From NCBI RefSeq assembly GCF_963675165.1, contig NC_087377.1, positions 10,464,632 to 10,528,631 of the forward strand: a stretch of DNA of 64,000 bases, read 5' to 3'. Numbering within the stretch: position 1 is the stretch's first letter; every line of letters starts with the position of its first letter. The notes beneath the pieces are model-generated. The model did no database searches and was not told the DNA's origin. It worked only from the letters and a program-made list of their open reading frames with translations. Origin of the DNA: Halichondria panicea (taxonomy: Eukaryota > Porifera > Demospongiae > Suberitida > Halichondriidae). This document shows positions 1,089-40,463 of this stretch, one piece after another. The translations under genes were made by a program, and so were the position numbers.

Positions 1089-4000
1089 TTATAGCTCTGT
1101 TGCTAGCTGTTTGGTTTGGGTGATCTCATCATACAGATGGGGAGAGACGTGAGGTTTGTCTCCTGCCGTCTCATATGCTTCTGAATCATTTCTTTTTAAC
1201 TGAGACACAACAGAAAACGTTTCATTGTGATTTTTAATGCTGTAGTTATAATTTACTTCCTCAGCGCTTTTTTTGGAACCTGTACATGTGTGTGCATGCA
1301 TGATTGTGATGTCATAATTATGTTGTATACTTAAATAACACGTACGATACATTATATGCATTGAATTAATTCAGTTGTGCAATGTTTCACATTGTAATTG
1401 CTGGCAACCATTATTAAAAGGCATAAATTAATGTCTACAGTGCAGTTTATGTACCGTATTACTAGAATTTTTGCTAGAGTATCAAACATTTGCAAACTTT
1501 GCGATGGTTGACCAATTCGCAACAATCAAAACATAAATTATTAGTACAAGTAAATGTACACACGATCCTTGCCAGAACGCAACAGTTAGATCGCAAAGGG
1601 TCAAATTTTCTGCTGATTTGGCTCATTTGCAAAGGTTTTTCACCAGTAAAATATTCTAGTAATACGATACACGAAAATTTGGGGGAGGGGGAAAGTTTGT
1701 GCAAATAGTATGTGTAAAAATCATTTGACTGGTTCGGCCTTTGTACATTGATCTCACTCTCATTGACCAGTGGTATATTCCACTTTCCCAGTAACCATCA
1801 AACAATACCATGCCACTGCATAGGGCCACAATGAACCCCTACTGCCATGCTTAGCACATTATAAGGTGATTTGACATAAAATGAATAGTTTGTAGTGACA
1901 TGCAACATTAAAATACCGAGGCCAGTGCCCAGACTCAGAATTGTCTACTGCAGTGGCTGATACCATTAGGCAGTCTCACAATAAACTGCATTAACCTTTA
2001 GAAGGAACGAAAATGGATGCAGACGCTGAACTAGGCCTATAGACCGAGGCCTAGACAAACTCTTTTCCAAGCTTTCCTGCATGAAGATAAAAATACTTAG
2101 ACCGAACCAATAGACCCCACCCTCTAAGTAAATATGGAGGCGGAGCTGGCTACTGCATGCGCATATATAGCTTTCAAAGGAGGAGCTGGAGCTGGGCGAG
2201 CTAGCAACAACAGGACAAGGCCAAGGAGTGATAAGACTCTTTGCACTTGTTGTACCTGGCTCAAAGCGTATGAAATGAGATCGTCTACAAGCAGCATAAA
2301 TAGTATCCCATGCACCTCCAAGCAAGTGCGTGCATCTGCACCTCGTTGACAAACGATGCAGGAGAAATGGAGAAGAGTGTATTCCTATATAATAGTATAC
2401 AACTGCAGATATACAACAGCATGGTGCGAGTACAGATTGAACAGCCATGCATGGGGGTGTTATTCCAACATATGCATCATGCAATTGAGTGGCCTGACAT
2501 TCGAGGAAATGTCCAAAAACCTGTTTGCTTCATTTTTTAGAATAACAGCTAAGAATTTATGTTTCCAAACTTTAACTTCAGCATCTGAAACATCTTCTAA
2601 CAAGAACTTATACTATGTTATTACCCAAAACAAGTTTCTTCATTGTCATAAAGTTATAATTGTGGTGTGAACTTGAACATTACAGGTTTATGAGAATTTA
2701 TTTACTGATTCAGTCCGTATCCTAGGTGATGTCCAGTAATTATTGACCGATTGCCTAGTAATTAATAACCTCAGCCTCGGGCTACGCCCTCGGTATTGGT
2801 TGTTTATAAACCATAATTAGTAGTCAACCCTTAGGTTAGGTTAATATGGGATATAAAACTCAGTACTGACCAATCAGATTGCTGGATTCTGAGCTAATAA
2901 ATAACGAAGAAAGTGCATGGTGCCCCATTTTTTTATAGATAAAGTCTCATTTATGTGTGGTTTGTATATGCACACTAGCACGTCCCATGTATAATTAAGT
3001 ACACGATAATAATTATTGTATGATGTACGGGTAAAATTATAACCTATCGTTCTGCATGCAAGCTTTGCATACCTCCATAGCGTCTTTTTCTCTTGTACAA
3101 CAGCAGTATCACCACCACGAAAACCACAAGCACCATGGTAACCACAATAACAGCTATCGTAACACCACCGATCAGTACAGGGATGTTTACACCACCTGCA
3201 TAGAAAGAAGATAAGTAACAGATACGTAACAAGTATCAATGCGATGGGGAAATGATCAGCAGTCATTCGTTGAAAACAAAATACAGTAAAGTCTTATATA
3301 AAATAAAGGACGTACTCCGAATTGACAATTAAAAGAGGATGCTGTTTGTTGGGACGTAAAAATTAAGAGTAAAAATTTTTTGGACGAGCGGAGGAAGTTA
3401 AAACGGTGCATTGAAAAGCAATGGAATGGTATACAAACCACAAACAGAGGTTCAAACAACAGTTGAATACCAGTATATAGAAAGAGTATCGAACTTACTA
3501 TACGAGTGCAGTAACACTGTTGTGCTAAACTGCACCAACTTGCGGAGTAGCGTCACAATGAGTCATATCGATCGCGTCATGCAGCTCATGCTATGTCATG
3601 TTACTTTCCATGCACACAGTGTTACTGTACTCATATAGTAAGTTCGACACTCATTATGTACTCATGGTAATACTGATCATGAATATATTCAAAGCACCTT
3701 GGAGCACATGCATGCAACAACGTTAGTTATTATGTGCTTATTGTAGGTACAAAAATGGAGTAAGTGTTGGATGTGCACATAATCAATATATATATTACCT
3801 GGATTCTCTGGGTCTGTCACTGAAGAGTTGAGGAGAGGGAATTGGTAATCGGTACCTACATGGTAATATGAACAAATGAGGTAAATAAAACAGATAGAAA
3901 AATGAAAGCACCACGGGTGCTGATGCCTCACTCAGTGGAGGCGTCAAATCTTACTAATGAAGCTAATGCACCATAGATAAAGCTAAATTAAATATACACA

Positions 4001-7000
4001 CAGGTATACAGTTGAATACATTTTACATTTTGCATGTGCTCTTGCATGGAATATCGTATTACTAGAATATTTTGCTGCTGAAAAACCTTTGCAAGTGAGC
4101 CAAATCAGCAGAAAATTTGACCCTTTGCTATCTAACTATTGCGTTCTGGCAAGGATTGTGTGAGTAGTAATAATTATAATTTAGGTTTTGCGGATTTTAT
4201 TTTTGCAAATTGATCAACCATCGCAAAGTTCGCAAATGTTTGATGCTCGCAAAACATTCTAGTAATACCGTAGTTGTGATGTTGGAGGTTTAAAGAACGA
4301 GTAGACTTTAGTATTAGTGCAACCAGTAGGTTAGTACAACCAGTAGGTTGTACATAGGATTGACAGTGCAGTTGTGTGTGCTTTCAATTATTGCACAAAT
4401 TTAGACAATACTCGCCTTTTATTGGCTCTATCCAAGTTCCATACTTATTGAGTTAAAAATCACATGACATATACGATTCGCATTTTTCATTGGCTCTATC
4501 CAAATTCTGATAGAGCACACGGAAAAATGCTGCAAGAGTCTCCACACCTAATCCCAGCTCTCCTTGATTTTGCCCCCGAGAGATTATAGGGTCTGGCCCC
4601 AACCCAGACTAAGCATCTTTGCAGTTCTTTCCTCACTGTTGCAGCTACTAATAGCTAGCATTCTAGTGCAGAGGTAACTACTAGGTAAAGCAGCAACACT
4701 GTATGGACAAGTTTTGCTACACACTATTCTGCATGGCATTCCAAGTAAGCAAAACTAGGTATAACTCAGAAATGAGGCATTACTTGCAATTCCATGCACA
4801 AACACACTATATACCACCTTGGGCACACCAAGGCATTCCATTATGACCACCTAATTACCTATGTTCTAACAGGGAAACGTGTAAGTAGAGTAAGTATAAA
4901 TCGAGGGACGGGAAACCGGCCAGGACCACTCCTGCTGCCTCTAAAAGCAGTAGCCCGGCCTATACTGTCTTATGCAGTGTAGCCCTATACTGTTGTATGG
5001 TACCTTGCATGCACAACAAATTAAAGAGCAACAAGTATATTGTAGCTATGAACTTTAATTGTACAATCAAGGGGAAGGCACTGATCAGAACTATAATGTT
5101 TATTTGCATTGGGACCTGAGCGCATGGTATTAATGCCTTAATATTGTGTTTAGCCTATCTCCCCAAAGATCATTAAGAGTGATTCTACTTATAATCTTAG
5201 ACCATTATAACTGCTACTTACTGAATGTGACGTTGGTTGATGTACTTCCAGCAATGTTACTGACTGTCACCACAATAGTATAGGAGTGGTTGAGCATAAG
5301 GATAGAGTTCACTTCTATTGTGAGGGGCTGGATGGTGTCACTGGTTGTGTAAGCTGTCTCTGATCCAAGTTTGAACTCGTCTCCAATGGTGGTATGTCCG
5401 TATAGCCACACTTGATATGACCCGGCTTGGTACGAGCAGACATTAGGCAACTGTAAATGCATGTGAGGAAATTCTAAATAGTAAAGATGGAGCATGGTTA
5501 TAAGCCATAATACTAGTCAACCAGTCAATAACTATAATAACGTAGCACGGTTTGAAAACATTAAGCAATGCATACAGGTGACACTTAATACGTACAGCTT
5601 TCCCGCATGGTTACAGTACCACAGGTAATTCGATATTAGGTATCACGTACGTACCTTGAACCTGATGGTATACATTGGACTGCCGTACTTTGTATAAGTG
5701 ACCTTGCATGTATTGCAATCCATCAGCTCAAATTGTGCAGGTGCTGCATTGCGCAATAATGTGAGTGCTTTATAGTCTTAGAAGTATATAGAGCATCTCA
5801 ATAAAGCAGAGTTAACTTTTACAGCAACTTCTGATTACTATTATATAGATGTACAAAATTAATATTGTTTTAACACTGTGCAAACTGAGAGCACGTGAAA
5901 AATCAATTAAAAGTCAGATACATCTCTAGGAGAGTGAACCTAAAGTGTTTGGAATGTTTCCTTCCTAGGTTGGCATGCCTATACACTTATAGTAATCAGT
6001 TTTTAATTGACTGCTAATCTAATTGGCTACTATAGCATACACTTTTCCGTCTATACAGTCTACTTGAAACATTCTAAGATCCATTGGTTATAGCTCTAGT
6101 GTTTTAGCTAGAAACAGTGCATGCCTATAATTATACTTATTATAAGTAGAGTTTACTCCTTATGCATATTCCTTTGATGTATGTATAATAAATTACACAG
6201 CTTCCATAGGCCTGTAAATTGATCTAATATAGATGTACATGTAATTATAACGCAGACAGGAAGGAGGTACACTGTGGTATAAACTTCAAGCCACTACTAA
6301 GGTACTTGTATTGAGCCGCAGGAAGTTGTGATTGTGTCTTGTGTGTACAATGAGAATTATTTCCCGACATATAGATGATTATGGGCGTCTTTATAGGTGA
6401 CAATCAATTAATGCTAATACGAGTTAACTTTAAATACGCTCTTATAATATTGCTGAAACCTCACAGCTGCATGCATGCACCTCACTCACGTATAGGGAAT
6501 CCCCCTGTGACTTGTCCTACTTGCCCCTCCCCGATGTCGCTACTAGCTGTCACGTTCACCACCAGCACATCACATCCTCCCACCCCACTCAGCGGGAAGC
6601 TCGTCTCGTTGCTATGCCAATAGAGTGTAGTACCTTCATTGGTGTTGGTGAGGGTGATGTTGTAGTGTGTGATGGAGTGGTTGGTCCAGGTGAAGGGCGG
6701 AGGCCAGCTCACGTGGAGGAGGGTGCTGTTGACAGCTGTTATCACCGGCTCAGGAGGGGAGGGGGGTCCTGTAAGAACCAATAATTATACATTCATTAAA
6801 TAATTCGAAGCGTTGTCTTTTAAAAACCAGTAAGCCGCCTTAGCAACACTTATCAACCGCTTTATTATTGATACTGGTAAGTTTAACTTATTCGCAAAAA
6901 CGTTGTGTCCCAGTATAAATGTATGGGCTCTGACATTTTAGTTGCCTTTTGTGGTAGGAATTAAGCCTGACAAATGAGCTCATGCCTCTCTGTGAGAAAA

Positions 7001-9133
7001 ATACTGCCGGCTGCACCTAAGCGCTCTACATTGATTCAGTTCTGTACCGCTAAAACCCTCAAAAAGTCCGAGTAACTAAAATCGATGCAGCACATAAATT
7101 ATATAGAAGACGTGCCTACTATAATATTATACAAAGCCAGTATAGAAAGTACCGCGGGTGCTGATGCCTCGGTGGAGATGCCAAAGCTATACATAACATA
7201 AAGCTATACCTATGTATACTAATATAGCTTTTATACACACATTATTTTATCATGATGCGTTAATTAATTCTGCTGCATGCAGGCAAAATCCAGAATCACA
7301 GGGAAACTCAAAGAGCGGGTAATGATTGTTGTTAAAAACGATGGATGCCAACAGTTCAAGTCTAAAAATTAATGGCTGCATCATGTCAGCAGAGCCTGCA
7401 GCTCTCTTCTCACTCTTGCAGCTATCAATAGCTAGCGTTCTAGTGCGGAGGATCTGTGTACTCTAGCTCACTCTTTGCAACTTTCAACTAAGTGGGTGTG
7501 GCTTAGAGCAGCCACGTCACAGGATACTTCTGAAGCTGAAGAGTAAGATATGACTTCATGCGCATTTATGCTACTATGTATGTCGATATAGTCATAACCA
7601 CACTGATTGGGCTTGACCTTTTTTTTGTGAAAATTTTGCCCCCCCCCTTTTTCTGGATCCGCCCCTGGGTCAAGTATACAATGTCAAAACATTGTCTGTA
7701 TAATTATGCCGTGGTGCGCATGCGCAAGCGAGGTGTACAGTAGTGTGTTGTGTGTGTCTGTCTGTGTGTCTGTGTATAGATTGCTATATACAGCTGCTCA
7801 AGAATCAATAAAGTGCAAGTATAAGAGTTTCTATAGGCTTCTAGTCGTGCTTTCAATTCATGAATTGCAAAATAATGCTTTGTTCTCGAATTATGCCTAC
7901 TTGCTATTGCAGCATTTTCATAACTTGTTCACCGAGTGTTGCTACTCTATACTTATTCGAGCGAATCTGCAGTGATCACTGGTCTTCTAGCAAGACAGGG
8001 GGGAGGGCACGTGCCTCTTGTGCCATGCACTGGATCCGCCACTGCTTGTTGTTTAATTAAACTTCATGGACAATGTATGCATGTTATTACTGATGTTAAA
8101 CTATAGCTATCCAATAGCTGCTTATTGTTCTTATCAATACAACTTGATCTACACTAGACTATAGTATTGCATTCAATAGCACAATAAGTCAGGATTTTTG
8201 ATACTCTATATATAGTCTCAATCTAACAATGGGATCTAAACTGAAGACTTGGCGGCCGGTGCATGTTGTGGCATAATTATGACCATTTTTAGTAAGAATG
8301 TCTTATTAACAGTTGTACATTATGCCGCACACAAAGCTCCATGGCGCGCCAACTCTGTGGTGCTGTGCTCAACGTGCATGGACAGTGTGTGGATCTGTTC
8401 ACATGCATGTGTGCATGTAGTTCGTGGGAATTAAATCAATCATGCATAATGCATGTATAATAATACCTGTATAATATTATATGACGCTTAAAACAGACTA
8501 ACCTAGAACTGTCAGACTTCCATGATAGCTGAATGCACTTGCAAGTCCATCATCAGCATGTCGTACAACAATAGTGTTATTCATATCCATTCTCGCCGGT
8601 ATTGTTAGAGAGTTTTCTGTATCATTCAAAACAATTCCCAATTGACGAATGTTAGCAGCGTCGCTGGGACTAGAAGAGGCGTAACGGGTGCCACTAGCCA
8701 AAACAACAATCCACGATAGTTCAATATAAGGAGATGTGTCGCTGAAGGTTGAATAGAAGGTAACATTCTCTCCAAGGACCACAGTGAAGTTTCCAGGGTG
8801 TGGTGTGAACGTGCCTTCCAAGTCTGCATGCACGTATACACAGCATCAGTACATGCATACATGCAGTATATAGATACAAGTTTGAGTGCAAGCGTTGCAA
8901 CGTATATTCATATTATAATTATTGCCAAAATTACATAGCTTTTCATTTTCAGTATAAAAAAATTATTAAAGTCACTGAAACATGATTTTTGCGGCATTTC
9001 AAATGGAAGTATTTGCTTCTTAGAAGCAACAATCATTAGACATACCAAACTGACTGAAACATGATGTAATGAACCCAAGAAGCAATAATATTATGACACC
9101 AGCTTTAGAAAGGGATACTGCAAACAACTTCAT
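1089..9133 (-). CDS. R1: Ig/FN3 single-pass receptor with short tyrosine-containing tail (458 aa, 8 coding exons)
   Basis: Coding exons in transcription order: 9133-9046, 8823-8503, 6768-6490, 5743-5655, 5450-5222, 3855-3799, 3195-3073, 1279-1089. All junctions are GT-AG, the phases join, and one ORF of 1377 nt results. Exon 1 is a signal peptide (MKLFAVS then a leucine-rich core). Exon 2 is an Ig-like domain with the core Trp (LSWIV) but no cysteine. Exon 3 is an FN3 domain (PPSPPEP, HVSWPPP, HYNITLTN). Exons 4-5 form a cysteine-containing second FN3-like domain. Exon 6 is a stalk. Exon 7 is a transmembrane helix followed by YKRKRR. Exon 8 is a 63-residue tail with Y431 (YETA) and Y445 (YDEI), possible SH2-binding sites. 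Many NxS/T sites lie in the ectodomain. A cell-surface recognition or signalling receptor is inferred; the ligand is unknown. Most exons are phase 1-1, which favours shuffling. Compare R2, which has a different tail. Confidence 0.8.
1455..1666. mobile_element. MITE with CGTATTACTAGAAT terminal repeats
   Basis: The 14-base ends are CGTATTACTAGAAT and ATTCTAGTAATACG. The interior is shared, in opposite orientation, with the element at 4055-4270, and in degraded form with 46080-46255 and 60385-60540. The copy lies in the last intron of R1. Small ORFs over it are incidental. Confidence 0.8.
4055..4270. mobile_element. MITE with CGTATTACTAGAAT terminal repeats, second copy
   Basis: It has the same ends as the element at 1455-1666 and an inverted interior. 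It lies between exons 5 and 6 of R1. Confidence 0.8.
7140..7990. mobile_element. Composite of the widespread CGCATGCGCA repeat family in an R1 intron
   Basis: 7140-7460 matches the left part of the full-length copy at 49660-50215 (GGGTGCTGATGCCTCGGTGG, then CTAGCGTTCTAGTGC). 7690-7990 is the right part in the reverse direction (GTGCGCATGCGCAAGCGAGG). Related pieces are at 497-575, 3890-3960, 4625-4785, 10110-10345, 18905-19085, 36840-37070, 58577-58800 and 63619-64000. Confidence 0.7.
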
Positions 9134-9658
9134 CTGAATAAAACCTGCAAAAAGATATGCCGAAACATTAATTTTTGCAGTGCATGAACTGTGGGGTAAT
9201 GGTAAGATGTTGGTTGCTGCATTAACGACCCACCATAGTTATAGACTATCTGTGAATGATAACACAAATTGCTTATAGATCCTGTACGTATAATACAGTT
9301 TTTAGTGCGTAAAACATGTTATGTTACGGCCTGTTATCAATTATGCATGCATATATAGAGGGTTGTTTGAACAACATGCAGGCATGAGTGACAGTTACTA
9401 TATAATTATAGGCACTGCAGACTAGTATTATAAGGTAACATATTATTACAGCATCCAGCTGAAATTAGATGCATGTATATAAGAGGGGGCCGGCCCAGGT
9501 TTTAACCTATATAGTTATAATTATATAGCAGCCCCATGCATGGCTTATATACGTTATATATTGCATATATATATAGGGCTAGTATGAAGGCAGGTATATA
9601 CTGATACCTATATTAATCATTCAGCCAGACGGCCAGTAACAATTGAAAAAGAACTTAC

Positions 9659-9725
9659 CTACAAAACAACACAGCTCATCAAAATTCTGAGAATTCAGGA
9701 CAGAAAACTAAGTTCTTTGTTGGAG
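9659..9725 (-). other. Probable 5' untranslated exon of R1
   Basis: On the minus strand a GTAAGT donor follows position 9659. The coding exon of R1 is preceded by a TTTTTGCAG acceptor about 14 bases before its ATG, so a leader intron is likely. The same block recurs at about 18715-18775 beside a decayed receptor copy. A similar donor lies at 38953 near R2. The 5' limit of the exon cannot be seen. Confidence 0.45.
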
Positions 9726-9744
9726 TGGCTTTTATTATAGATTA

Positions 9745-9785
9745 TATAGAATCTAGTCAACTCTTCAATAAATACTGCATGCACC
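9745..9785 (+). pseudogene. Leader relic of a lost family-A gene
   Basis: The stretch resembles the leader just before the ATG of the A genes: the motif GTCAACTCTTCAATAAA, then a piece ending ACTGCA. No A exon follows. A similar relic is at about 18783-18812. This suggests that R1 once had a divergent A partner whose body was deleted. Confidence 0.4.
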
Positions 9786-10380
9786 TGTCAAAAAATCAAC
9801 AGCTATTAAATTTCCCTCTATGGAATGTTAATGATTTTGCCATCCTAAAGCTATGAATAGATTTATTAGCTTGGTAATACTCCTAGATACTACTGCATGC
9901 AGTGAAGTTATCAGAAGGTTGACTGTAATACTGCCACCTTGCTTCCTTGCTTGCATTGATATTCACTTCAGTACACTAGATCTTTATTAAATTCACAAGC
10001 AAAGAGTCGATCACAAACACATATTATAATTATGCAGACAAGAAGTGTGACGTTAACGCCCTCTCGAAACGGGTACAGTGATTGATATATATTATGTGTC
10101 TGTTCTACCAATATAGCTAGCGTTCTAACTATAATTATAGTGCAGAGCTGACTACTATAATAAGTAGAGTATAGCAACACTCCATGAACAAGTTTTGCTA
10201 TGCACTCTTCTGAAAATACTGCATGGCATTCCAAGTTAATAATACAGAAGCTCTTTCTTGAGCAGCTGTAGCAGTCTATAGCTATACACAGACACACAAA
10301 CACACTACCATATACCTCGCTTGTGCATGCTGCGCACCTATGAATAATAACACTTACATATGTATGAACCACACAGTATA

Positions 10381-11140
10381 TAGGCCTGAGCTAATTATTC
10401 AATCTATTATTTAAATCTTTTATTCTCACTTTCCTTCCCTATTATTCAAGAAACTCTCACTAGGCCCTGATAATAAATTTTTCACTCATTGTTCTATTCT
10501 TAGAAAAATGTGCCTATTATTCTCATAAAAAATCCGATTATTCTCCAAAAAATGTGGCATAACAAAATTAAGACGTAGAAATAAACACAACACACAACTG
10601 ACTCAAGACATAATTAATATATCGTGTTATCTCGCTGAATTGAACTGATCCATAATTAGGTATTACTAAAAGGGCAGCTGATTCATGATTCACCTTCAGC
10701 CATTTTTTGCCATGAAAACATCGTTATGCAAGTAATGATCTTTACCAAAAATGGACATTGACGCCCAATTATTCTTTAGACACCTATTATGCTAAAATTA
10801 TTCCAAGCATAATTTTTCACGGCCTAACTCTCACCTATTATTCAAGTTTTTCAGTCTGTTTTTGACAATAATTTCTAACACATGGAAAAATTGGAATAAA
10901 CAGTATAAATTTGTCCTCTATATAGATCTCTTTCTTCCTACAGTGGATTGCAACCTTTCTCTTTCTTGTGAGATTTGATGTGCTTGAGGTAAGGCTTGAG
11001 GAGCTTTGAAGACTTCAAATTAAAAATTTTTAGATGATCTCCCTGTTTTTAGAGCCATTCTGAGCATGCGCAATAGTGTTTTGTGGTTAATTTTGCCTAT
11101 TATCCAAGATGCTGCCTATTATTCAATTAGCTCAGGCCTA
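10381..11140. mobile_element. 760 bp inverted-repeat element, TAGGCCTGAGCTAATT ends
   Basis: A perfect 16-base terminal inverted repeat bounds an AT-rich body that repeats CTATTATTC and has no ORF. The duplicated locus at 19090-19515 lacks it, so it inserted after or independently of that duplication. Confidence 0.8.
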
Positions 11141-11451
11141 CCACACAGGTAACATTTTCCCCCTATATTGTGCCATTGCAGCACGTAAGATGATGGATTG
11201 CGATACACGCCGCTAAAATCTCTCATAATTGTGGTTTGTAATGCGTGATGCTAGCTCGACATGATCAATTGTATACAGTGATACCATGCATCATATACAC
11301 CTGTTAATTAAAGAGCGATCTAGTACATATCACCATCTCAAAAGGGAATGGATAATATCGATTCACTTAACACTCAAACGTGATAAAAATACATGTATTA
11401 TAATTATACTGAGGGGCACTGATTTGCACATGTTTTGCATATAATTATACC

Positions 11452-13862
11452 TCTACGGCGTCGTCTTCTCTTACAGTCGCAGAGTTACCACGGACACAAC
11501 AAGCACCGTGGCGACCACAACAAAGACTAATACCACTAATCTGTACATGGGCATTCTCACTGCCTGTAAAGATTATGGTGATTTACCTACGTTTAACTAT
11601 CAATTATGGCTTGTTGTATACCTTACAAAATCATGCATATACAATTGGGATTGAAACACGTACAGCAGACAAGAATTTAAACTGTTGCAATATTATACAG
11701 TGATGAGCCATGAACTATAAATAAAGGACATCATTGTTTGGGAACAACCAATGACCAAATTATATAGACAGGATGTAGGTTTGTAGGGAAATGGGAAACA
11801 TGCAATTGGGACCTATTAATTTAACCTCCATTATAGAGGCTCTTTGTTTGGCTGGACTGTCCTTTGTACTGACGCCCAATTGTGTTAGCAATAATTGTAT
11901 GTTATATGCAAGTGTACAAACAGAGTTCAGTAACAGTTCATTCAAATTATTATCAGCTATGCTCTATATAGCTATTGGAGAGATTACAATGAGTCTATAC
12001 ATTTGGTATGAAACAGAGCATGTGAGGCAACGTCAGAATTACCTGTCATCAGTGGAATCCCTATATAAGCCTGTCACTGAGGAGGTGAGGACAAGGAATT
12101 GGTAATCTGTACCTATAGATACGGTATAGTAAACAACAATTCACATGAGGCCGGTAAAAAAATGACATGCATGGTAATTACGCCGGTATGTAGAGATCTA
12201 TATGGAGCCACCAAGGTTTCATGGCGACTGTGTATACCTGAAATATTAAAGTCCCAACAGGAAGGAGTTAAGCATATGGATAGTATAATTCTATGCACTG
12301 ACAACAGAAGAGACAGTAATGAGTATGAACCTCGTTATACATTCAAACAACGGGAACCCTTTAGCTATAATAACTAGAGCACTGAAGTGTAAACCCTCAG
12401 CGTTAATTTGAGGTTTAGTGAGTTTACAGCCTCGAGTCAAAGCCGTGTGTACATCTAGGTCAACGTGCAGGTTCAAGCATTTTAGCTTTTTAGATTTTGC
12501 TCGCTTTTATTCGACACCGAAGCTAACATATTCCTTGAAACAAACCTTAATTGATTGTTTACTGAATGTGAGTGACGTTGGTTGATGCACTGGTTGAGCA
12601 TATTAAAGGATAGACTCTACGTACCTCTATTGTGAGGGGCTAAGCCATCTCCAATCCGAGTTCAAACTCACCTCTATATATATAAGGTTAGTAGGTCTCA
12701 TGCACAGTTTGGTATGAGCAGACATTAAAATTAATGTGGAAATCCAAAAAAATAAATACAAATTAATTACAAAGTTTGTTATAAGCATTATAAGTGGTAA
12801 TATATAGGTGGTCTCCGTGATCGAGATGTGATACCATATAGTTTGACCAATAATCATTTAATAGACAATAATTACCTCCCAAGTAATATGAGCAATGCAG
12901 GTGGTATACAAGTGCCAAACTTTTTGGGTGAGAAATGAAACATTACCTCATACTGGTACTGTCACACAGATATAGCAATCGTAAATTATTGTTGGAATAA
13001 CGTACAAACCGCATAAGACACAAACAAGGAGGGAGAACAATGTGTAGTAATATTATATATTGCATGTGCAGCAGGATGTGCAACTCAATCAGTTTAACAT
13101 ACTCCTCTTTATAGGAGAAGTATAGACAATACTTTCCATTAATGTAAGCAGTTTCAAAATCACAAGTATAGCCCTCCAACAAACTCGAACAATGTCATCA
13201 CAAGTCCTGGATGCATGTATACATAATAATTATTATATTGACTGTATTTGGGCTCTTAATTGTCTGTATAGCATGTGTAATATTTCACAGGTGGGATGAT
13301 TGCTTGACTATATATAGCACTTTGCCGCTACTGAATTATTAGCTGTGACACAGCTAGTGTTGATAAATCATTTCCCTTACTCCTTTTTAGCTTTGTAAAT
13401 AGAAGACATTGTAGTGCTGAGACATGTGACTATTTTTATAATGGCAATTAAGATTAGGTAAACTGTGCTGTCCCTCGTTAACTGTATACAGTGGAATGTG
13501 TTCAAACAGGAAATGAACAAGGCTATACATTCAATGTCTGTATGATGCTTATTACATCATAAAATTATACAAGACTGTGTGATGCATACAAGACACCCAA
13601 TCAACTTAAAAGTTATCACGGTTTGCAAGCACATCTGCTGCATGTCGTTTAACAGTCAACATGCCCGGTGCATGATGGTGTTCATATATCCAATTCTCGT
13701 TTGCACTGTCAGATTGCATCATTCAAAACAATTCCCATGCAGTCTGCAAATTAGCCGGAGTATGAGTACGGGATAGTTTGATAATGTACCGCTGAAACTT
13801 AAATTTAGAAGATCGCATGCATGCATGCATTCTCAGTAACGTTTCCAGGGTGTGGTTTGATC
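11452..13862 (-). pseudogene. R-psi-a: decayed receptor copy, partner of A1
   Basis: Recognisable remnants on the minus strand, in receptor order: part of the Ig exon (about 13700-13860), an uncertain conserved block (about 13085-13185), part of the second FN3-like exon (about 12562-12720), the stalk exon (12112-12043, with extra bases that shift its phase) and the transmembrane exon (11563-11452). In the transmembrane exon the frame that matches R2 meets a TAA directly at the end of the helix. No signal-peptide, FN3 or tail exon was found. The copy stands head-to-head with A1. Confidence 0.7.
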
Positions 13863-14415: not shown

Positions 14416-14422
14416 TATAAAA
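14416..14422 (+). promoter_or_regulatory. TATA box of A1
   Basis: TATAAAA lies 107 bases before the A1 ATG. The same motif occurs 88-107 bases before all four A start codons, within a conserved leader rich in CAAGCAAGC and CAACTCTTCAA. Confidence 0.6.
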
Positions 14423-28884: not shown

Positions 28885-30298
28885 ATGTCACAAATCAGTC
28901 AAGCTCTCTTCAGTGCACAAATGATCACTCTCCTACTATGCAGTCTCAATCTATTCACTACTACAGGTGAGTTATAATAGTTTAACTATACTACTATGCA
29001 TGCAGGCTTGCACCTATACCAATTCATAACGCTATAGCTATAGGTCGCCAACAACTCGGCCTGGGGACGAGGCTACATGCATACATGCATGCAAAGTTGC
29101 CACTCACTGCATGAGTGAGCTCACAGCTGCTCTGCATGTGCAACTGATTAATCGTTTAGTATAGTTATTATGCAAACATTATTGGTTGTTCATTTGGACC
29201 TGCATGACAAGTGTATATACATGCAAACACTCACTATTCTTTCTAATTATGCAGCTGCTCCGATACAACTAGCCGTTAACCCACTCATCATCGAAACAGA
29301 ACTGAACACATGGGCAAATTTCACTTGTACCCTCTCCTGCGAATTCAAAGACGACTTTAGGATTAGATGGTTTGCTGGAGATACTACCCTCCGAGGCCGA
29401 CTAATTCGACATGGCAACCCATCAAAAATTATCGAAGAAGGTGACACCTGTGAATCCCTCGGCACAGAAGGGAAATTCTGGCAAATACTACGCATACGAG
29501 TGGATTCGATAGACCTTAACAAGACTCCCATACAGTGCACGGCCTCGCCTAAGACCAGCCAGAATACAGTCCACTTCAGCTCCTACTCTGTGCTGAAAGT
29601 AAAATTCAATGGTGAGCTAGCATACACTACTAATAAGCAAATAATATTATAGTATTCGCAAATGTCATGATAATAATATCAATATTATACTAACAACACA
29701 ATTGAAGAAAAATTAGACCCGCTACAAACTCGAGTGATGACCTAGTACACACTATAGTCATGGATCAACTTTACTCATATTTTTTCTACAGCTCCAGTAC
29801 CCGAGGTTAAAGAGACTGTACCTAACTGCCATCAAACAGTACAAGGTGTGTAATACAGTAATCCTATGCAAAGTATAGTATTATAGATCTACCCTACACA
29901 CTAGACAAACACAAATTAACACTGGGTGCCTTACTGTAATCACATACCTACGTACTAGTCAATCGCCTGTACATGAAAACGAAGGATATAGCTAATTTGT
30001 CTTGACACCCCGGCCCCTTAACACCAGATAATAATTATACAACACATGATCTCTCTTAATTCCTATTGTGTGGGACTTACACACAAGACACAACACTTTC
30101 ACTGACCTATAATTATGGACTGAATTATTCTAATATAACCCACTAAGTATCTAACCACTTTTTGTGGCCTATAGCACTTAACACCATGCACTTGAGGACT
30201 CAATAATTTTTTTCTCTACAGTTAATGATGAGTCGGTGACAGCAGCCCCTCAAGCCCAAACTACAAAGTCATCAGAACAAAGTGAAAAATCAAGCTAA
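28885..30298 (+). CDS. A3: small secreted single-Ig protein (189 aa, 4 exons)
   Basis: Exons 28885-28966, 29255-29611, 29792-29845, 30222-30298. The total of 570 nt is open. The architecture is that of A1 with two changes: the Ig exon carries two extra residues near its end (LKVKFNG), and the tail is longer, ending EQSEKSS, because the early stop of A1/A2 is absent. The mid-domain loop is CESLG. The introns are shorter than in A1/A2 and diverge more, so this is an older copy. It is tail-to-tail with R2 (650 bases between stops) and head-to-head with R-psi-d. Confidence 0.82.
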
Positions 30299-30948: not shown

Positions 30949-33900
30949 CTACTGCTCCCCATTCTCCATGAAGACCATGTAGTTGTCCTCGTTAAAACCC
31001 TGAGCCGTCTGAACAGCCAATCGGTTCACAGCCGCTATATTCTCCAACTCCTCTTTCTTGATACTCACTGACTTCATTGAAGTGTACTCTCCACTCCCAG
31101 TGGATCGATTATCCGAATCAGTCTTGTTCTTGTTGTTCGCGAGGAGCTGAAGATAAGCATTGTTGTCTTTTTCACTTTCGAAAACAATCTGGGGCACTTG
31201 AGTCCGCTCGGCATGATAATGGTGTTCCACTCTAGGTGGGGGTAGGGAGGGGAGGCCACGCGGAGGACAAGTGGGACTCGTATCGAGCTTAGTAAAAGTG
31301 TCGGTGTGATAACCATCAATGGCTTCATAGATACGGGTCTCTGCCTGTGTATACGGCCCCCCACGAAGAGGTCTGCTGCCGTCCTCCATGAATATCTTGG
31401 CCAGGGACAACTCAGCAGCTAGAGGGGGAAATTAAGGATAAGAATCTAACCAAAAATCACTTATTATTATGGTGATCTTTTCCAGGAGAGAATGAACTCA
31501 ATAATCAGTTATTTGTGTGAAGGTCCTTACCACACATTATTGACCTCCAATGAATGTGCTACACACTGGGATCAATAATTTATTATTCAAAGCCTTAATT
31601 TACACAATTGTGTGAATACAATTTATTTTGTATGCATACATGCATTAACATCAAGGTCAGGATGTCAGAGCATACAGACAGTAAGCAAAGTAACAACCTC
31701 AGCGCACTTCACCGTAGAGAGTGATCTAAATGTTAACTCAAAAGTGTTGCATATTGAACATCGGATCACCTAAGATTCTAACTTGATGACAATATATTAC
31801 TGGTTTATGCAGCATGCACATGTTTTGCATACCTCCACGGCGTTTCCTTCTCCTGTGCAACAGCAGAGTTACCACGGATACCACGAGTGCCATGGCAACC
31901 ACGATAATGGCTATCGTACTAATACCAACCAGCAAAGGGGTGCTCTCACCACCTGCAAGGAGTACACAACATATGTTTATGGCTTACTTATAGCGCGAAA
32001 TTTTCGAGGCACTTATATTTCGTGGAATGGCCTCTAAAAACGTTCCGTTGCACAATGTTTGTGGAATGACTGCTTACCGAAAGCCACGCCTTTAATTTTT
32101 GCAACTTATAGCAGATTAAAGAACAATTTTCGTGTAGGATTGCTAACCCACGAAATCCGCGAAAATTTTGCGCTATACGGTATATACTAATCATGACATG
32201 CACAGAATTTTGCGCTATACGGTATATATATACTAATCATGACATGCACAGCAGTAAAAAACGTTGGACAAATTTACTGGTAGCAGCAACATTAATTTTA
32301 AAAAGCATATTATTGTTTGTTGGGAGGTAAAAACAAAGATACTTTTAAATCGCCCTGTATTTGCACTATATCCTTTGACAATTATATAATTATATGGAAT
32401 GGCAGGCATGCAAGCAGCTAGTATATGCAAACATATATCAGCGACAGTCTGTATGTAACGGTAGCTATGCTTGCAGCTATACGGTATATACTATACAGTC
32501 AACGTTATATATTTGGCATAGTACAGAGTATGTGCAGAATTACCTGTTACCAGTGGGCCAGTTACTGAGGGGGTGAGGAGAGGGAATTGGTAGTCTGTAC
32601 CTATAGTTACGGTGGTAGTAAATAGATAAACAAACAAATTAAATGAAGTAAACAAATCAATTAACACTAATTTTGTGTTACGTTTGGACCAAAACAGGTT
32701 TGGAAGTAATGTACTTATAATTATACAAATAATTATTATTATAGTAAAACTTCTAATTGACACAAAACAATCTTTCTTTGGAACACAAATAAAGCGGAGA
32801 AAAAAACATAAGCCTCATGTAACTGCGTGGCGGCGCCTCATTTAGAGTGACAGCCATGCACGTTGAAAGTTGAAATTGCGGGATAGCTAGTTTTGATGGC
32901 TCCATTTGGCGCACAATAAGAACCATGCTGTTGCAATATGCGCTAAGATTAGAGTCGCAAGGTGCCTTAATTAGACTTTTTACGGTAGTGCAAACCCATA
33001 CAGAAGTGGCCTTTGTTGGGACTTATTTCAAGCACAAACAATTTAAGACCTGAGTTCCTGGCCTTTATACTTGGCAGTTAGCCTCTTTCGTAATTCATAG
33101 GTTACCAGTAAGTAGTATACATGATATACACTTCGAAACAAACCAGTACTATACATGCATAATAGTTTTATAAAGTAGACTACCATATAGCGGGTAATTT
33201 TCGGGGGGGTCAAAATATTTGTGTTTCAGCAATATTTAGCCATTTGTGGTTTTATTTTCGTGGTTGCTCCTTGCACTGCAGGTAAAGGTAGGCAAGGTCG
33301 CTTCATTCGTGGTAAAATATTCGTGGTACAGAGTTAAACCACGAAATTAACGGTATGTAAACATCAACTGATTGTAATTTTGACACAAACGGGCCCCCAT
33401 ATAAACATTGTGACAACCTAACTTACTGAATGTGACGTTGGTTGATGTATTTCCTGCAATGTTATTGACTGTCACCACAATAGTATAGGAGTGGTTGAGC
33501 ATAAGGATAGAATCCACTTCTATTGTGAGGGGCTGGACGGTGTCATTGGTCGTGTAAGCTGTCTTAGATCCAAGTTTAAACTCGTCTCCAATGGTGGTAG
33601 GTCCGTACAGCCATGCTTGATATGACCCGGTTTGGTACGAGCAGACATTAGGCAACTGCAAAACAAGGAAATTCCGAAACAGAAATGTAAAGATTGACCA
33701 TAATTATCTCGTAGATCAGTGCCAGTGCTTGTTAGTCAACGTCATAAAGATGTAATATAATTATAGCATAGGTGGTCCCTGTGATAATTTATAGATGTGA
33801 CACCATAGTTTGACCTATAAGAGATCATCAAACAGTGCATTACCTCCCATGTATAGCATTGTTTGAAAACAATAAGCAATGCAGGTGATATTTGCGTAAA

Positions 33901-36900
33901 ATTACGCAAGTGTAATTACGGTACGAGGGGTTACACCACAGGCAATTTGATTACGAACCTTAAATCTGATGGCATACATTGGACTGCCGTACTTTGTAAA
34001 AGTGACCTTGCATGTATCGCAATCCATCAGCTCAAATGGTGCAGGTGCTGTGTATTGGTCGGAAAGTAGGAAACAATAATGCATCCATGCAACAGTAAGA
34101 AAAAAAAATATTAGCAAACTAGTCTGTCAACAAAAATTAAGAATGAAGCAGATACAATGTGTATCTGTGGCTATAATTATTAGTTAGTCCTATATACAGT
34201 GTGTACAGTGAGAACGTATAATACACCATCGTTTTGTGATTATGATATTCACATTATAAGCATGCCTATAATTATAACAGAGTGTTGTAACTGAGGAATC
34301 ATCCTTTAAAAGTATGTCGAGCCTGCTCGGAAGAATGAAGCTAAGTGTTTGGAATGTTTCCTCTCTTATGCAATCTGTTTTCTTAATTGGCTCACTGCTC
34401 AAGTGGTGAAGCAATGATTGTACAGTTGAGCCTCGGTTATCAGAACCCGATAATTCAAATTCTTCGGATGACAAATTTAGCCAAATTTAATGAAACATTT
34501 ACTCGCACACACGTGATTGAAAACTTTGATTAGCAGCTAGAAGCAGCTAAACACTTCAGCTTAGCCTAACAGTAGTATAGCTTGCTACCTTGTTCCACTG
34601 CATTATTTCCAAGACTATAGGACATCTGCTTTTGGACGTGGTTCATTGAGAGTCATTTTGGTATCTGAGTATTTCAACCAGCCGGATGAGGTGGGGACAC
34701 CATGCAGGTGTTCGGATAATCGAGGCTTAACTGTACCACTATACTGTACTCAGTACTGGGATTGCTACCTACTAATGATATTCATAGATTGACACTAATT
34801 AAACATGCATAACTATTAGTAAAGCATGAGGAATCAGCCGTTAAAAGTAAGATACATCTCGAGCTCTTGCTCGAAAGAATGAAGTGGAATATGTTTCCTC
34901 GTTATGTAGTTCAAATTGCTTAATTGGCTCACTATAATGATAATTATCAATAAACAATTGACAGTATGGTCAGTGGTTTATAGCTCAATAGAACAATGCA
35001 TGGCTATAACTAACTGAGTGTGAAGAGTGTAAATGTGTCTCTTGCACATTCCTTTGAGAGAAATTTTGCACATGGGTATAAATGCATAGCTATAGGTTAA
35101 AAATCTGATAAATATTGTGATTTAATCTAAAACACGCAATAACTGAGCACGTATAGCGTATAGCGAAACCAGTTCATAAGGATCACTCTATAACTATAAT
35201 TATATGGACAGATCAACTAGCTAGGGGTGGCCTGTAAAAACGCATGCTAAGGATAGGCTATGCTAGTTATAAGGTGGACAGCTAGTTCGATACATGAACA
35301 TAATGCTATTAATAATTATGAAGATACCCCTGTAAAATGTTATACTTGAACTACTGTGTATTCTAATAATAATGCAGACAAAACCGGCTCTCCACAAAAG
35401 GAAAAGGAAACTCGCAGACAGGAAACAAACTGCATACCACTGTGGTATTAGGTTCAGGTCACTGCTAAGGTACTGTATGGAGCTCACAGGAAGTTGTGGG
35501 TTGTGTCTAGTATGTACAAAGAGGATGACTTTCTTACTTCCTGAGACTGAGTGATTGTGGGTGATTGTATACAATGCAGAGTGACCAAAGGAACGCAAAC
35601 ACAACTGATGGGGCTTCATGCTAGTTTTGTATGTATATAGGAACACCTATAGCTGTTGAATAGGAATCTTTCATGGAAAACATTATGGTGCATCGTACTA
35701 ATTTCAACACACAACTCTTTTCATCAAAGTAATTAGCACTAACGTCAGTACACTTTCACACTGTTTTAATACTGATAGCTATGTATACACCTCACTCACG
35801 TATAGGAAATCCCCCTGTGACTTGTCCTACTTGCCCCTCCCCGATATCGCTACTAGCTGTAACGTTCACCACCAGCACATCACATCCTCCGGCTCCACTC
35901 AGTGGGAAGCTCGTCTCATTGCTATGCCAATAGAGTGTAGTGTCTTCATTGGTGTTGGTGAGGGTGATGTTGTAGTGTGTGATGGAGTGGTTGGTCCAGG
36001 TGAAGGGCGGAGGCCAGCTCACGTGGAGGAGGGTGCTGTTGACAGCTGTTATCATTGGCTCAGGAGGGGAGGGGGGTCCTGTAAGAACAAAGACTATATC
36101 AAAATTGTATACCATGCATATAAACTAGTCTACAGTCATTTTTTAATAATTATTATGCTGCAGCTGTGTATGCCAGTTTGTGCTAGTGGCAAGGATTTGT
36201 GGTAATCTATAACCAACTAAAGCAAGAGCAACATAATTATTAAAAGTAGATGTATCAAAAATTAATAATCAACGAGGAAAAGATACTAAACACACCATAA
36301 TATAGAGACGGAATTATCGTGCTTTGCATGATTACTTGTCTTTGGAATTCCGCGAGAAATATGTATGCACAGTAAAACCCCAATTATCCGGACACCAAAG
36401 AAAAAGAGAAAAAATAGAGCCGGATATATATAATGGAGGGCTGGATAATTGAGGCTCTATACTGTAAAACTTTTGATGCGGGGCTTCACCTGATACTTTT
36501 TGATGCACATGCAGATACTACATTATTGCATAAACAAACCGCTAGACGGAAACGAGAGGGAGAACAATGTGGCATTGTGTTGTAACAGGATATGAAAAGC
36601 ACTCACTCCACTCCTCTTTAGGAAAGGTATAGACAAAACTTTCCTTGTCATTATGCAAGCAGTTTCAACATCACAAGTCTATTTATATAATACACAGTGT
36701 AAGTTAGAACATGGGCATGAGGTATCATGTGTTATAGTGTCCCTAATCCCGAGGGATGAGACACACTAGATACCGAATGCACATGTTCTAACTGATTTAG
36801 ATCTCAAACCTATTGGCTACTTGATGGAGTGCTGATATACTCTACTTAGTAGCTAGCTATTGGTAGCTGCAAGAGTGAAAAGAGAGCTGCAAGGATCTAT

Positions 36901-38131
36901 ATATACGTACTGTCTGAACTGCACTTCAGACTTGTACTTTTGGTATCACATCAATGGTCGATCATTTCCCACTCTTTTGGTTTCTCTGCTATATTACATT
37001 TAGCCAGCAAAAACGTAAAATTGCTCATATCCACCGAGGCATCAGCACTAGGCGCCCGTGGTGCTTTCAGTATAGCAACAATGTTGAAAATTATTCCCCT
37101 AACTACTTTTTAGGCTCAACTCTAAATGCTCTTGTATAAATAGAAGCCATTGTAATGCTGAGACAATAATTATGGCAAGATTAGGTAAACTGTGCTGTCC
37201 CTCGTTAACAGTGGAATGTACTTATTCAAAGGAAGTCATGCAACAGGCAGCATTGTGTAATGATTTTGTGTGATGGTGTATAGCGGGTAATTTTCGTGGG
37301 GTAAAATATTCGTTATTTTCGTGGGCAAGCTGACCTCCACGAAACTTTAACGTAGGCGTGGCTTACTGGACCGTATGAATGCAGTGCAGGCAACGAGACT
37401 TAACGAAAATTAATTTTTACTGTTGAACAAATTTTTACCCCACGAAAATTATCCACTATACGGTACTTAACATGCAACATCATCATTATAACGACGTTAT
37501 AATGATGCGATGCATGCATGATACTTACAAGACACAAACAATCACACACGCCACGCACTGACCTAGAACTTTCAGATTTCCATGATAGCTGAATGCACTA
37601 AATACATCCGTTGCATCTCGTACAACAATAGTGTTATTCATATCCATTCTTGCCGGTATTGTTAGAGAGTTTTCTGTATCATTCAAAACAATTCCCAATT
37701 GACGAATTTTATTAGCTTCGTTGGGATTAAAAGATTCGTAACGGGCACCACTAGCCAGAGTAACAATCCATGATAGAATAATATTAGAAGATGTGTCGCT
37801 GAAAGTTGAATAGAAGGTCACATTCTCTCCAAGGACCACAGTGAAGTTTCCAGGGTGTGATGTGAACGTGCCTTCCTCTGTATGTATAAACAAGCAAGTT
37901 AGGTCAGAAAACTAATTATTAAAGAAATGGTATTACTGCATGACAATATAGATCTCAGCGAGTTGATATGTTGGTATGACTTGTATAAACAAATTGTATA
38001 TAGCTGTCACAATCTATTGCTTTGTAAATTCTACTAAACATACCAAACTGATCACTAACACATGATGTAATGAGTCCGAGAAGCAGCGTGACACCAGTAA
38101 AAAGGGATACTGTAAACATGTCGGACTTCAT
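30949..38131 (-). CDS. R2: Ig/FN3 single-pass receptor with long tyrosine- and proline-rich tail (548 aa, 8 coding exons)
   Basis: Coding exons in transcription order: 38131-38044, 37877-37563, 36078-35800, 34047-33959, 33655-33427, 32600-32544, 31952-31833, 31418-30949. All are GT-AG with joining phases (1647 nt). Domains follow R1: signal peptide (MKSDMFTVS), cysteine-free Ig-like domain, FN3, second FN3-like domain split over two exons, stalk, transmembrane helix and a basic stop-transfer (HRRRKRR). The 156-residue tail is unrelated to that of R1. It has tyrosine motifs near residues 423 (YEAI), 481 (YLQL), 504 (YTSM) and 539 (YMVF), and a proline-rich SH3-type segment (LPSLPPPR). SH2/SH3-dependent signalling is inferred. 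The YxxI/L motifs are about 58 residues apart, too far for a classical ITAM. It is head-to-head with A4. Confidence 0.82.
31991..32182. mobile_element. MITE with TATAGCGCGAAATTTTCG-type ends in an R2 intron
   Basis: The ends ATAGCGCGAAATTTTCG and CGAAAATTTTGCGCTATA are inverted. Its right end plus flank (about 40 bases, to about 32250) is duplicated directly after it. Confidence 0.75.
33182..33356. mobile_element. MITE related to the TATAGCGGGTAATTTTCG family
   Basis: The left end ATAGCGGGTAATTTTCG is clear. The right end is weak (CACGAAATTAACGGTATG). It lies just after exon 5 of R2. Confidence 0.55.
34421..34735. mobile_element. Pogo/Tigger-like MITE
   Basis: The ends TACAGTTGAGCCTCGGTTAT and ATAATCGAGGCTTAACTGTA are inverted, with TA at both borders. 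It is 315 bp, non-coding, between exons 3 and 4 of R2. Such CAGT-ends with TA target sites are typical of the pogo/Tigger branch of Tc1/mariner. Confidence 0.8.
36370..36465. mobile_element. Short pogo-like MITE
   Basis: CAGTAAAACCCCAATTATCC and GGATAATTGAGGCTC...ACTG form an imperfect inverted pair 96 bp apart, in the R2 intron between exons 2 and 3. Confidence 0.6.
37277..37465. mobile_element. MITE with TATAGCGGGTAATTTTCGTG ends
   Basis: TATAGCGGGTAATTTTCGTG at the left is mirrored by CACGAAAATTATCCACTATA at the right. It is 189 bp, just downstream of the Ig exon of R2. Relatives lie at about 47520-47720 and 60552-60765. Confidence 0.85.
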
Positions 38132-39000: not shown

Positions 39001-39001
39001 G

Positions 39002-40463
39002 ATGTCACAAATCAGTCAAGCTCTCTTCAGTGCACAAATGATCACTCTCCTACTGTGCAGTTTCAATCTATTCACTACTACAGGTGAGTTATACAGTTTA
39101 ACTAGATGATACATGCATGCATGCAACTGAGCTTAAAGCTCTGTGCAACAGGTTTATAGTAAGAGAAAACTTCCTCTATGAAACAGAGCACGAAGGCTTC
39201 ACGCATGCAAGCACGTGCGTTATATTAAAGCCTATATCCATTTCTTCGTTCCTGTAAGTTAGTTAATAACGAAAGCAAATAGGCTTCTTGTTTACTTTGA
39301 CCTGACGTAACAATAATAATACATGGAACTCATTCTAATTATGCAGCTGCTCCGATACAACTAGTCGTTGACCCAGCCATCATCGAAACAGAATTAAACA
39401 CATGGGCAAATTTCACTTGTACTCTCTCTTGCGAATTCAAAGATGACTTCAGGATTAGATGGTTTGCTGGAGATACTACCCTCCGAGGCAGACTAATTCG
39501 ACATGGCAACCCATCAAGAGTTATCGAAGAAGATGACACCTGTGGAATCCCCGGCACAGAAGGGAAATTCTGGCAAATACTACGCATACGAGTGGATTCG
39601 ATAGACCTTAACAAGACCCCCGTACAGTGCACGGCCTCGCCTAAGACCAGTCAAAACACAGTCCACTTCAGCTCCTACTCTGTGCTGAAAGTAAATGGTG
39701 AGCTAACTATATTATAGTACACTACTGCACATGCACACAAAATTGATTATCATCTTCCAATTACACAGTTATTCCCATTAAGCTCATATTATTTTGAAGA
39801 ACGACAATACCGATTCAAAATAGTAGTGACCTAGTAGCACATCAGTGACATGCATTCGATAGCAAAACATTTCCTGTTTATGCAAATTGTTTATTGACAC
39901 CAATTGCTTGCACTTTGTCCACAGCTCCAGTACCGGAGGTTGAAACAACTGTACCTGTACCTGACTGCAAGCACACTACACAAGGTGTGTAAATACAGCA
40001 ATCCTATGACTAGACAAAATTGGATGCCTTAATGTAATTGCCTACCAAGTATAGTCACGTAGTCACCTGTGTTTGTTTGTGTACAGAAAGGTGTAACACA
40101 CTGTGCCGATAGTTTTGTCTTAACACTCCCACAACACCGGAAAATACAATCCCCTCTGTCCTATAAAATGATTTCCTATTGTGGGGGCCTGCATGTATTA
40201 ATTTATGGACCTATTATTAATACAAAATCAACAAGACAAAACCACTTTGTTTATCGAGATTCTAATTGGATTCATAGACCAATCATTATTCAACCACCCA
40301 CCACTTAATTATCCAACCACATTATGTACCTAGCACTTGAAGACCACTCGAGAACTATAAGTGAAAAAATTCTTTCTTCTTTACAGCCAATGATGAGTCC
40401 GTGACAGCAGCCCCTCAAGCCCAAACTACAAAGTCATCAGAACCAGGTGCAAAATCAGGCTAA
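39002..40463 (+). CDS. A4: small secreted single-Ig protein (189 aa, 4 exons)
   Basis: Exons 39002-39083, 39347-39697, 39925-39984, 40387-40463. The total of 570 nt is open with phase 1 GT-AG introns. The signal peptide and Ig-like domain match the other A genes. The mid-domain loop is CGIPG as in A2, while the long tail (ending EPGAKSG) resembles A3. Exon 3 has two extra codons (VPVPDC). This mosaic of A2-like and A3-like sites suggests gene conversion or recombination within the family. The divergent partner is R2, with about 870 bases between the two ATGs. The next gene downstream is Brambleberry-like, tail-to-tail. Confidence 0.82.

Follow-up and report, generated by a model that had tools for sequence, protein, structure and literature searches.

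Does an array of receptor genes and genes for secreted immunoglobulin-like (Ig-like) proteins in the sponge Halichondria panicea form a recognition locus, and do the products of its two gene families act on each other? To our knowledge, the receptors with which sponges distinguish self from non-self are not settled. The discrimination itself is highly specific, according to the accessible part of PMC5450542. The window, that is the whole stretch of DNA that we analysed, comprises 64,000 nucleotides (C1:10464632-10528631) of a genome of 131.5 Mb in 39 contigs. The first-pass annotation of this DNA had described membrane receptor genes (R) alternating on opposite strands with genes for small secreted Ig proteins (A), and had proposed an immune or allorecognition locus with a ligand/receptor pairing of A and R. 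Positions below are those of the window unless a contig is named.

Structure of the locus

Using splice models and exon-by-exon blastn (E 1e-3 for the decayed copies), we recovered the same inventory: six R-family copies, of which two are intact and four decayed, and four intact A genes. In all six spliced models (R1, R6 and A1-A4) the introns are GT..AG and the exon phases agree. The outer limits, 1089 and 40463, are the stop codons of R1 and A4. The features are as follows.

1089..9133, minus strand: R1, intact receptor of 458 aa, modelled from splice sites and phases
9133-9046, 8823-8503 and 6768-6490, minus strand: R1 exons for the signal peptide (SP), the Ig-like domain and FN3
5743-5655 with 5450-5222, 3855-3799, 3195-3073 and 1279-1089, minus strand: R1 exons for the second FN3-type domain, the stalk, the transmembrane segment (TM) and the tail
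~11425-13860, minus strand: R2, decayed; Ig, second-FN3, stalk and TM remnants; faces A1
14523..16003, plus strand: A1, 181 aa, 4 exons; TATAAAA at 14416; corresponds to LOC135345542 isoform X1
16864-17732, minus strand: R3, decayed; stalk, TM and an 18-bp remnant of the second FN3-type domain; no A partner
19846-21054, minus strand: R4, decayed duplicate of R2; second-FN3, stalk and TM remnants; faces A2
22755..24237, plus strand: A2, 181 aa, 4 exons; TATAAAA at 22650
25056-27367, minus strand: R5, decayed; FN3 with an internal deletion, stalk and TM; faces A3
28885..30298, plus strand: A3, 189 aa, 4 exons; TATAAAA at 28795; corresponds to LOC135345671 isoform X3
30949..38131, minus strand: R6, intact receptor of 548 aa, modelled from splice sites and phases
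38131-38044, 37877-37563 and 36078-35800, minus strand: R6 exons for SP, the Ig-like domain and FN3
34047-33959 with 33655-33427, 32600-32544, 31952-31833 and 31418-30949, minus strand: R6 exons for the second FN3-type domain, stalk, TM and tail
39002..40463, plus strand: A4, 189 aa, 4 exons; TATAAAA at 38914; faces R6
9566..26167, no strand: tandem duplication; 11150-17969 is repeated in two pieces as 19535-26167 (88%)

R1 and R6 each consist of eight coding exons for a signal peptide, an Ig-like domain, two FN3-type domains, a stalk, a TM and a tail. The second FN3-type domain (FN3b) is split across two exons, and a comparison with LOC135345371 isoform X2, an annotated neighbouring gene, shows the same boundary. 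The FN3 exon of R1 matches the Pfam fn3 family (E 5.5e-7, 30.1 bits, cut-off 25), and the full R proteins score 23-24 bits, just below the same cut-off. R1 and R6 were absent from the protein-collection matches listed, R1 having been queried solely within a profile; A1, A3 and one receptor of the surrounding cluster are present in the same collection. Besides Halichondria, one FN3 protein was among the candidates listed in that search; a further entry, which might have been taken for a second assembly, is identical to an open reading frame of the window itself, and no conclusion is drawn from it. In the A genes, the exon for the signal peptide is followed by one for a single Ig-like domain, then by a short exon and by a last one that encodes a Ser/Thr-rich end; no TM was seen by eye in A1-A4. 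The spliced A1 and A3 proteins are identical, letter for letter, to annotated H. panicea proteins; two A genes are annotated with isoforms. In all four A genes the TATAAAA motif lies 88-107 bp 5' of the ATG. The receptors with tyrosine-bearing tails and the small, putatively secreted Ig-like A proteins both held up, and the array is a real and coherent locus of receptor and secreted-Ig genes.

Every A gene lies head-to-head with an R copy (A1-R2, A2-R4, A3-R5 and A4-R6), as had been described. The alternation on opposite strands is not strict: R3 adjoins R4, and R1 and R3 have no A gene. Only in A4/R6, whose start codons are 871 bp apart, are both genes intact. For R2, blastn at E 1e-3 gave no FN3, SP or tail. 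Both the duplication of the array and its partial decay proved real. The segment 18613-18906 matches 9566-9866 upstream of R1 (80%) and marks the duplication joint, by which R3 was apparently truncated. A single late tandem duplication probably gave rise to R3, R4 and A2; the earlier array, we infer, consisted of R1, R2-A1, R5-A3 and R6-A4. Since 11150-17969 recurs as 19535-26167, the four head-to-head pairs are not independent. The A genes face R copies by descent from one unit, with A4 alone facing a living R copy, which weakens, without refuting, the ligand/receptor inference; the head-to-head arrangement is thus weak evidence of a ligand and its receptor.

Ig-like domains and the surrounding receptor cluster

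The first domain of R has a tryptophan and no cysteine, and gives no Pfam match. In a search of the PDB, the Ig-like domain of R6 had 29 weak matches at E<=5, 28 of them to PD-1 and one to an antibody chain (best E 0.035). The R1 domain had 34 weak matches at E<=10, to PD-1 (28) and to FGF receptor (6). The AlphaFold model of the R domain (mean pLDDT 48.6) was too poor for a fold search. The first domain of R is likely an Ig domain. The A domain has a Cys-Trp-Cys pattern, and there is no Pfam match in A. A profile of A and A-like sequences gave 17 weak PDB matches (best E 0.11), and 9/17 were T-cell receptor or antibody chains. A1 alone gave eight: seven to mitochondrial ribosomal protein L37, with a best E of 0.012, and a single one to an antibody chain (E 0.58), so the Ig identity of A depends on the Cys-Trp-Cys pattern. 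Its AlphaFold model (mean pLDDT 35.9) was likewise too poor for a fold search. Judged by these weak matches only, both domains look like V-type Ig-like domains.

The array lies in a larger receptor cluster. When the R1 FN3 domain was searched against the genome (E 1e-3, 70 of 70 candidates scored), 14 places were found, with four rows in the window, and all are on C1 at 10.17-10.50 Mb. Both Ig and FN3 matches are present at 13 loci, R1 and R6 included. This count, for which R6's own domains were among the seeds, covers 10.16-10.36 Mb (200 kb), three small loci and the window, and mostly excludes ~10.363-10.464 Mb. Receptors of the LOC135345371 type on the same chromosome share with R the exon plan, the TM and a tyrosine/proline tail with YxxM, and their FN3 and second FN3-type domains are clearly related to those of R. 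However, their Ig domain has the usual cysteines, and that of R has none. A profile of the cluster Ig domains built without R did not match the R Ig domain above chance (E 3 and 10); therefore, it is only by position and phase that the R Ig exon is taken to be homologous to those of the cluster. LOC135345371 isoform X2 gave no PDB match.

Exon-by-exon divergence of R1 and R6

The main new result is the contrast in substitution rate between the exons of R1 and R6. Pooled Ks is 0.145 (95% bootstrap 0.097-0.204) for Ig, FN3 and FN3b and 0.674 (0.417-1.069) for SP, stalk and TM. This 4.6-fold contrast was reached by 0/20000 permutations of codon labels, and it comes from a single gene pair whose exons are small (28 codons in SP, 18 in the stalk and 39 in TM). 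By exon, Ks is 0.152 in Ig, 0.148 in FN3 and 0.135 in the second FN3, versus 0.590 in SP, 0.547 in the stalk and 0.794 in TM. Since the exons with low Ks are central and those with high Ks lie on both sides, a single breakpoint would not produce the pattern. The intron flanks (200 bp) of R1 and R6 are 38-57% identical in forced global alignment, and some identity persists just beyond the edges of the FN3 exon. The Ks pattern is most simply read as the result of R1 and R6 having exchanged ectodomain exons, with gene conversion as the putative cause; unequal synonymous constraint may be an alternative source of the contrast.

The homogenised exons do not evolve alike at the protein level. The Ig exon is 82% identical in amino acids and the FN3 exon 96% in nucleotides; Ka is 0.117 in Ig vs 0.014 in FN3, and 3/20000 permutations reached this difference. 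The Ig-like domain is thus the fastest-changing part of the ectodomain. Ka/Ks is below 1 in every R exon, and positive selection on the R Ig domain was rejected (Ka/Ks 0.77, not above 1). There is a hint, but no more, that the Ig changes are clustered (p 0.010 for the longest unchanged run and p 0.056 for the densest 12-residue window).

As controls, we compared Ks exon by exon in six other pairs from the cluster. In three of them (r10312/r10316, r10312/r10337 and r10316/r10341) Ks was low and roughly even, 0-0.16, across Ig, FN3, second FN3, TM and tail, SP and stalk being excluded; these are close copies of one another. Two pairs (r10312/r10321 and r10337/r10346) were saturated in every exon and are uninformative. 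The sixth pair, r10321/r10346, was uneven in the direction opposite to R1/R6: Ks was 0.605 in Ig, 0.407 in FN3, 0.068 in FN3b and 0.096 in the tail, TM being unmatched. It turned out that a 97% segmental duplication around this pair ends at the edge of the FN3 exon. We therefore rejected the pair as a mosaic that keeps its tail and swaps its ectodomain: a duplication breakpoint can mimic conversion, and it may be what we see here. The pair is also possibly a haplotypic duplication in the assembly. The decayed R5 was compared as well. Its FN3 is 89% identical to both R1 and R6, its TM exon 78% to R1 and 67% to R6, and its stalk exon 86% to R6 and 75% to R1. Since the stalk nearly matches the FN3 level, R5 gives weak support for homogenisation.

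Cytoplasmic tails

The tails of R1 and R6 did not match each other in genome searches. The R1 tail (63 residues) belongs to a recurrent type: it matches C1:11065570 (64%), C5:6943468 (61%) and two weaker places. With the C1:11065570 tail as a query, eight places were found, itself and R1 included, and two of the eight are weak. In both stretches examined, the R1-type tail is preceded by exons that, by eye, resemble Ig and FN3 exons, and the FN3-like exon of one of them (L046) matches seven places, both stretches included. The C1:11065570 tail carries YDEI-x10-YAEI with an ITAM-like spacing, the C5:6943468 tail has both motifs with a longer spacing, and the R1 tail retains YDEI alone. The R6 tail matched only itself in the genome. 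It carries YTSM, YLQL, YEAI and PxxP motifs, and YTMM with PxxP is also present in LOC135345371. YxxM binds the p85 subunit of PI3-kinase. In paired immune receptors, an ITIM in one member and an activating motif or adaptor in the other are a defining feature. A motif scan found no canonical ITIM or ITAM in the R1 or R6 tails. Therefore, we do not claim membership in the paired-receptor class for R1 and R6, and opposite signalling stays a conjecture.

Evolution of the A genes

The A Ig exons are 92-97% identical among themselves. Across the coding sequence, Ka/Ks of the A copies is 0.25-0.47, which indicates purifying selection. A genome search with the A1 Ig domain returned the four A genes and one weak relative only (E 0.03), so that the likeness of the four exceeds chance. 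The weak relative is an A-like gene at C1:10431-10433 kb, 33 kb left of the window. By eye its exons encode a signal peptide, an Ig domain and a Pro/Cys segment; its Ig is 25% identical to that of A, and no R match was found within its 3.3-kb locus. A1 and A2 are a young pair, in which Ks (0.032) and intron identity (95-97.5%) are mutually consistent. Ks is 0.161 for A1/A3, 0.152 for A1/A4 and 0.141 for A3/A4, with introns 49-69% identical in forced alignments, a discord between exons and introns like that of R1 and R6. The grouping of A1 with A2 is backed by 12 coding and 185 non-coding sites. Three exon sites (15173, 15176 and 15179) pair A1 with A3 and A2 with A4, over a background of three non-coding sites and two sites of the third grouping. 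These adjacent sites suggest a very small conversion tract.

Possible roles of the locus

How can these results be read together? The best supported reading is that R1 and R6 are analogues of paired receptors. It builds on what the DNA itself carries, namely the predicted architecture, the unlike tails, the homogenised exons and the decay of the other copies. R1 and R6 would both be intact receptors within a local cluster that has the Ig-FN3-FN3-TM architecture, and ectodomain exon exchange by gene conversion would hold their outer parts alike. This likeness would let them bind the same or overlapping ligands, and the short R1 tail and the long tyrosine/proline-rich R6 tail with YxxM would turn the binding into different readouts. 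In function, the two genes would thus parallel the paired immune receptors of vertebrates. The A proteins would be soluble factors that serve recognition or blocking in the same tissue response, and would not be one-to-one ligands of the R copy that each faces. Taken as a whole, with a shared ligand, signalling, an immune role and a role of A, we hold this reading tentatively, at somewhat under an even chance.

The vertebrate precedent is close in some respects. The definition of paired receptors includes opposite signalling and overlapping expression, and in Siglec-11/16 the ectodomain exons have been homogenised by gene conversion, one of the two having a nonfunctional allele (both from the accessible part of PMC5701461). 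In the portions of the literature available, Siglec-11/16, CD300A/C and CEACAM are, like R1/R6, neighbouring receptors of the Ig superfamily (IgSF) whose ectodomains are nearly identical and whose cytoplasmic parts differ. In contrast to them, R1 and R6 lack ITIM/ITAM, have FN3 domains and a cysteine-free Ig-like domain, and are sponge genes.

It is also conceivable, if rather unlikely, that these are ordinary developmental or adhesion receptors next to a secreted-Ig array, with the decay as duplication debris and the uneven Ks as patchy constraint or breakpoints. Purifying selection acting on A and on the FN3 domain of R, the missing ITIM/ITAM and the unevenness of r10321/r10346 near a duplication edge fit such a view, as does the fact that Pfam and the protein matches listed contained no homologue of known immune function. 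However, a 4.6-fold Ks contrast that is low mid-gene and high on both sides is not easily explained in this way, nor are unrelated tails on one ectodomain. The proposal that A is a secreted ligand or antagonist of R, co-regulated with it through a shared divergent promoter, is a guess, and on balance we consider it unlikely. It agrees with the head-to-head geometry of 4/4 A genes, the 871-bp distance between A4 and R6, and exon homogenisation in both the R and the A sets; in Botryllus, fuhc-sec, a secreted Ig protein, has been argued to act as the ligand, and receptors are encoded in the same locus (PMC12065747, in the part accessible). Our analysis brought this pairing no gain: three of the four A genes are intact though they face dead R copies, the intact R1 has no A gene, the geometry was apparently copied by duplication, and the distant A-like gene has no R match in its locus.

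An allorecognition locus, with allelic variants of R, A or both as the self-markers on which fusion or rejection depends, seems improbable. In its favour, a tandem array of IgSF genes and pseudogenes is reminiscent of the Hydractinia allorecognition complex (PMC11067881, accessible part), and the Ig-like domain is the most divergent part of the ectodomain. On the other hand, the A copies are very alike and Ka/Ks in R is below 1, and the words "immunoglobulin" and "receptor" are absent from the accessible text of the Amphimedon grafting paper (PMC5450542). It is likewise improbable that the locus is the working part of a sponge self/non-self system, with a cluster that swaps ectodomain and tail exons and so couples a single recognition surface to different signals, and with secreted A partners, the system being polymorphic among individuals. 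The first-pass interpretation is thus partly supported: homogenised ectodomain exons with divergent tails, a fast Ig-like domain and the surrounding receptor cluster speak for a recognition locus, and the ligand/receptor pairing drawn from geometry gains no support, as the head-to-head layout looks inherited through tandem duplication.

Two invertebrate systems resemble the locus in part. The Botryllus fuhc locus (fuhc-sec, fuhc-tm, fester and FcoR) likewise combines a secreted Ig protein with Ig receptors that have tyrosine motifs, as far as the accessible part of PMC12065747 describes it; fuhc-sec has ~550 residues and EGF domains and is highly polymorphic, whereas A has 181-189 aa and one Ig domain. 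Hydractinia Alr genes are likewise clustered single-pass IgSF receptors with many pseudogenes (PMC11067881, same part). In the sponge locus, by contrast, FN3 domains predominate and genes for secreted A proteins lie between the receptor genes, and no Alr protein was among the matches listed in the protein-collection searches. We found no published mention of this locus in the literature searched, which misses most subscription journals. If the paired-receptor-like reading is true, it would suggest that the arrangement of one surface with several signals, held in step by gene conversion, either has a second origin outside the vertebrates or is of great age. Among other sponge genes, NLRs and Ig-TIR genes are covered in PMC12909245 and a Geodia Ig-like receptor kinase is cited in PMC12018476, each in the part accessible. 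Putative cytokine receptors with Ig and FN3 domains have been reported for H. panicea itself, together with individual-specific expression of pattern recognition receptors, and the locus offers concrete candidate genes in a sponge already used in immunity work (PMC8242945, accessible part).

Receptor-like and possible Ig genes elsewhere in the genome

Using the short cytoplasmic tail at C1:11065570 (C1, NC_087377.1; C4, C5, C9 and C10, other contigs), which is like that of the intact window receptor R1, we searched the genome and found R1-type tails at seven places outside the window.

C1:10767375, R1-type tail
C1:10922275, R1-type tail
C1:11065567, R1-type tail, with an ITAM-like motif, YDEI-x10-YAEI
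C1:11182837, R1-type tail
C1:12471584, R1-type tail, weak match
C1:13345039, R1-type tail, weak match
C5:6943450, R1-type tail

Ig/FN3-looking exons were present in both places that were inspected (C1:11065567 and C5:6943450). With 150 of the 172 candidates scored, V-set matches occurred at 36 or more places genome-wide. It is possible that other tight groups of these matches, on C10, C4 and C9, are further Ig gene clusters.

C10:5074580-5160437, V-set group
C10:1635933-1729360, V-set group
C4:5660464-5720451, V-set group
C9:2464588-2475225, V-set group

The Ig-FN3 receptor cluster on C1 contains a segmental duplication of 97% identity that covers three receptor loci. The duplicated sequence stops at the third locus's FN3 exon, and in this third locus both the Ig and the FN3 exon show strong divergence.

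C1:10312247-10321889 and 10337222-10346927, duplicated segments (L041-L044)

A gene with a long run of FN3-type exons sits at the cluster's left edge (L024 and L027, C1:10.173-10.180 Mb). The intact receptors R1 and R6 were not found among the protein-collection matches listed; the same-species secreted Ig-like proteins A1 and A3 and one cluster receptor were recovered from this collection.

Repeats and an open frame in the window

47913-50034 and 61903-64000, duplicated stretch, copies about 14 kb apart, 95-99% identical within matching pieces
41640-42204, tandem array of a 78-bp unit
58915-59214 and 59466-59765, 300-bp direct repeat, 99% identical
52788-53906, minus strand, open frame of 372 aa

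The 372-aa frame gave no convincing match in Pfam. Judged by eye, it encodes a signal peptide together with membrane segments and a number of cysteines, and it is reminiscent of the KAR5/GEX1/Brambleberry nuclear fusion proteins.
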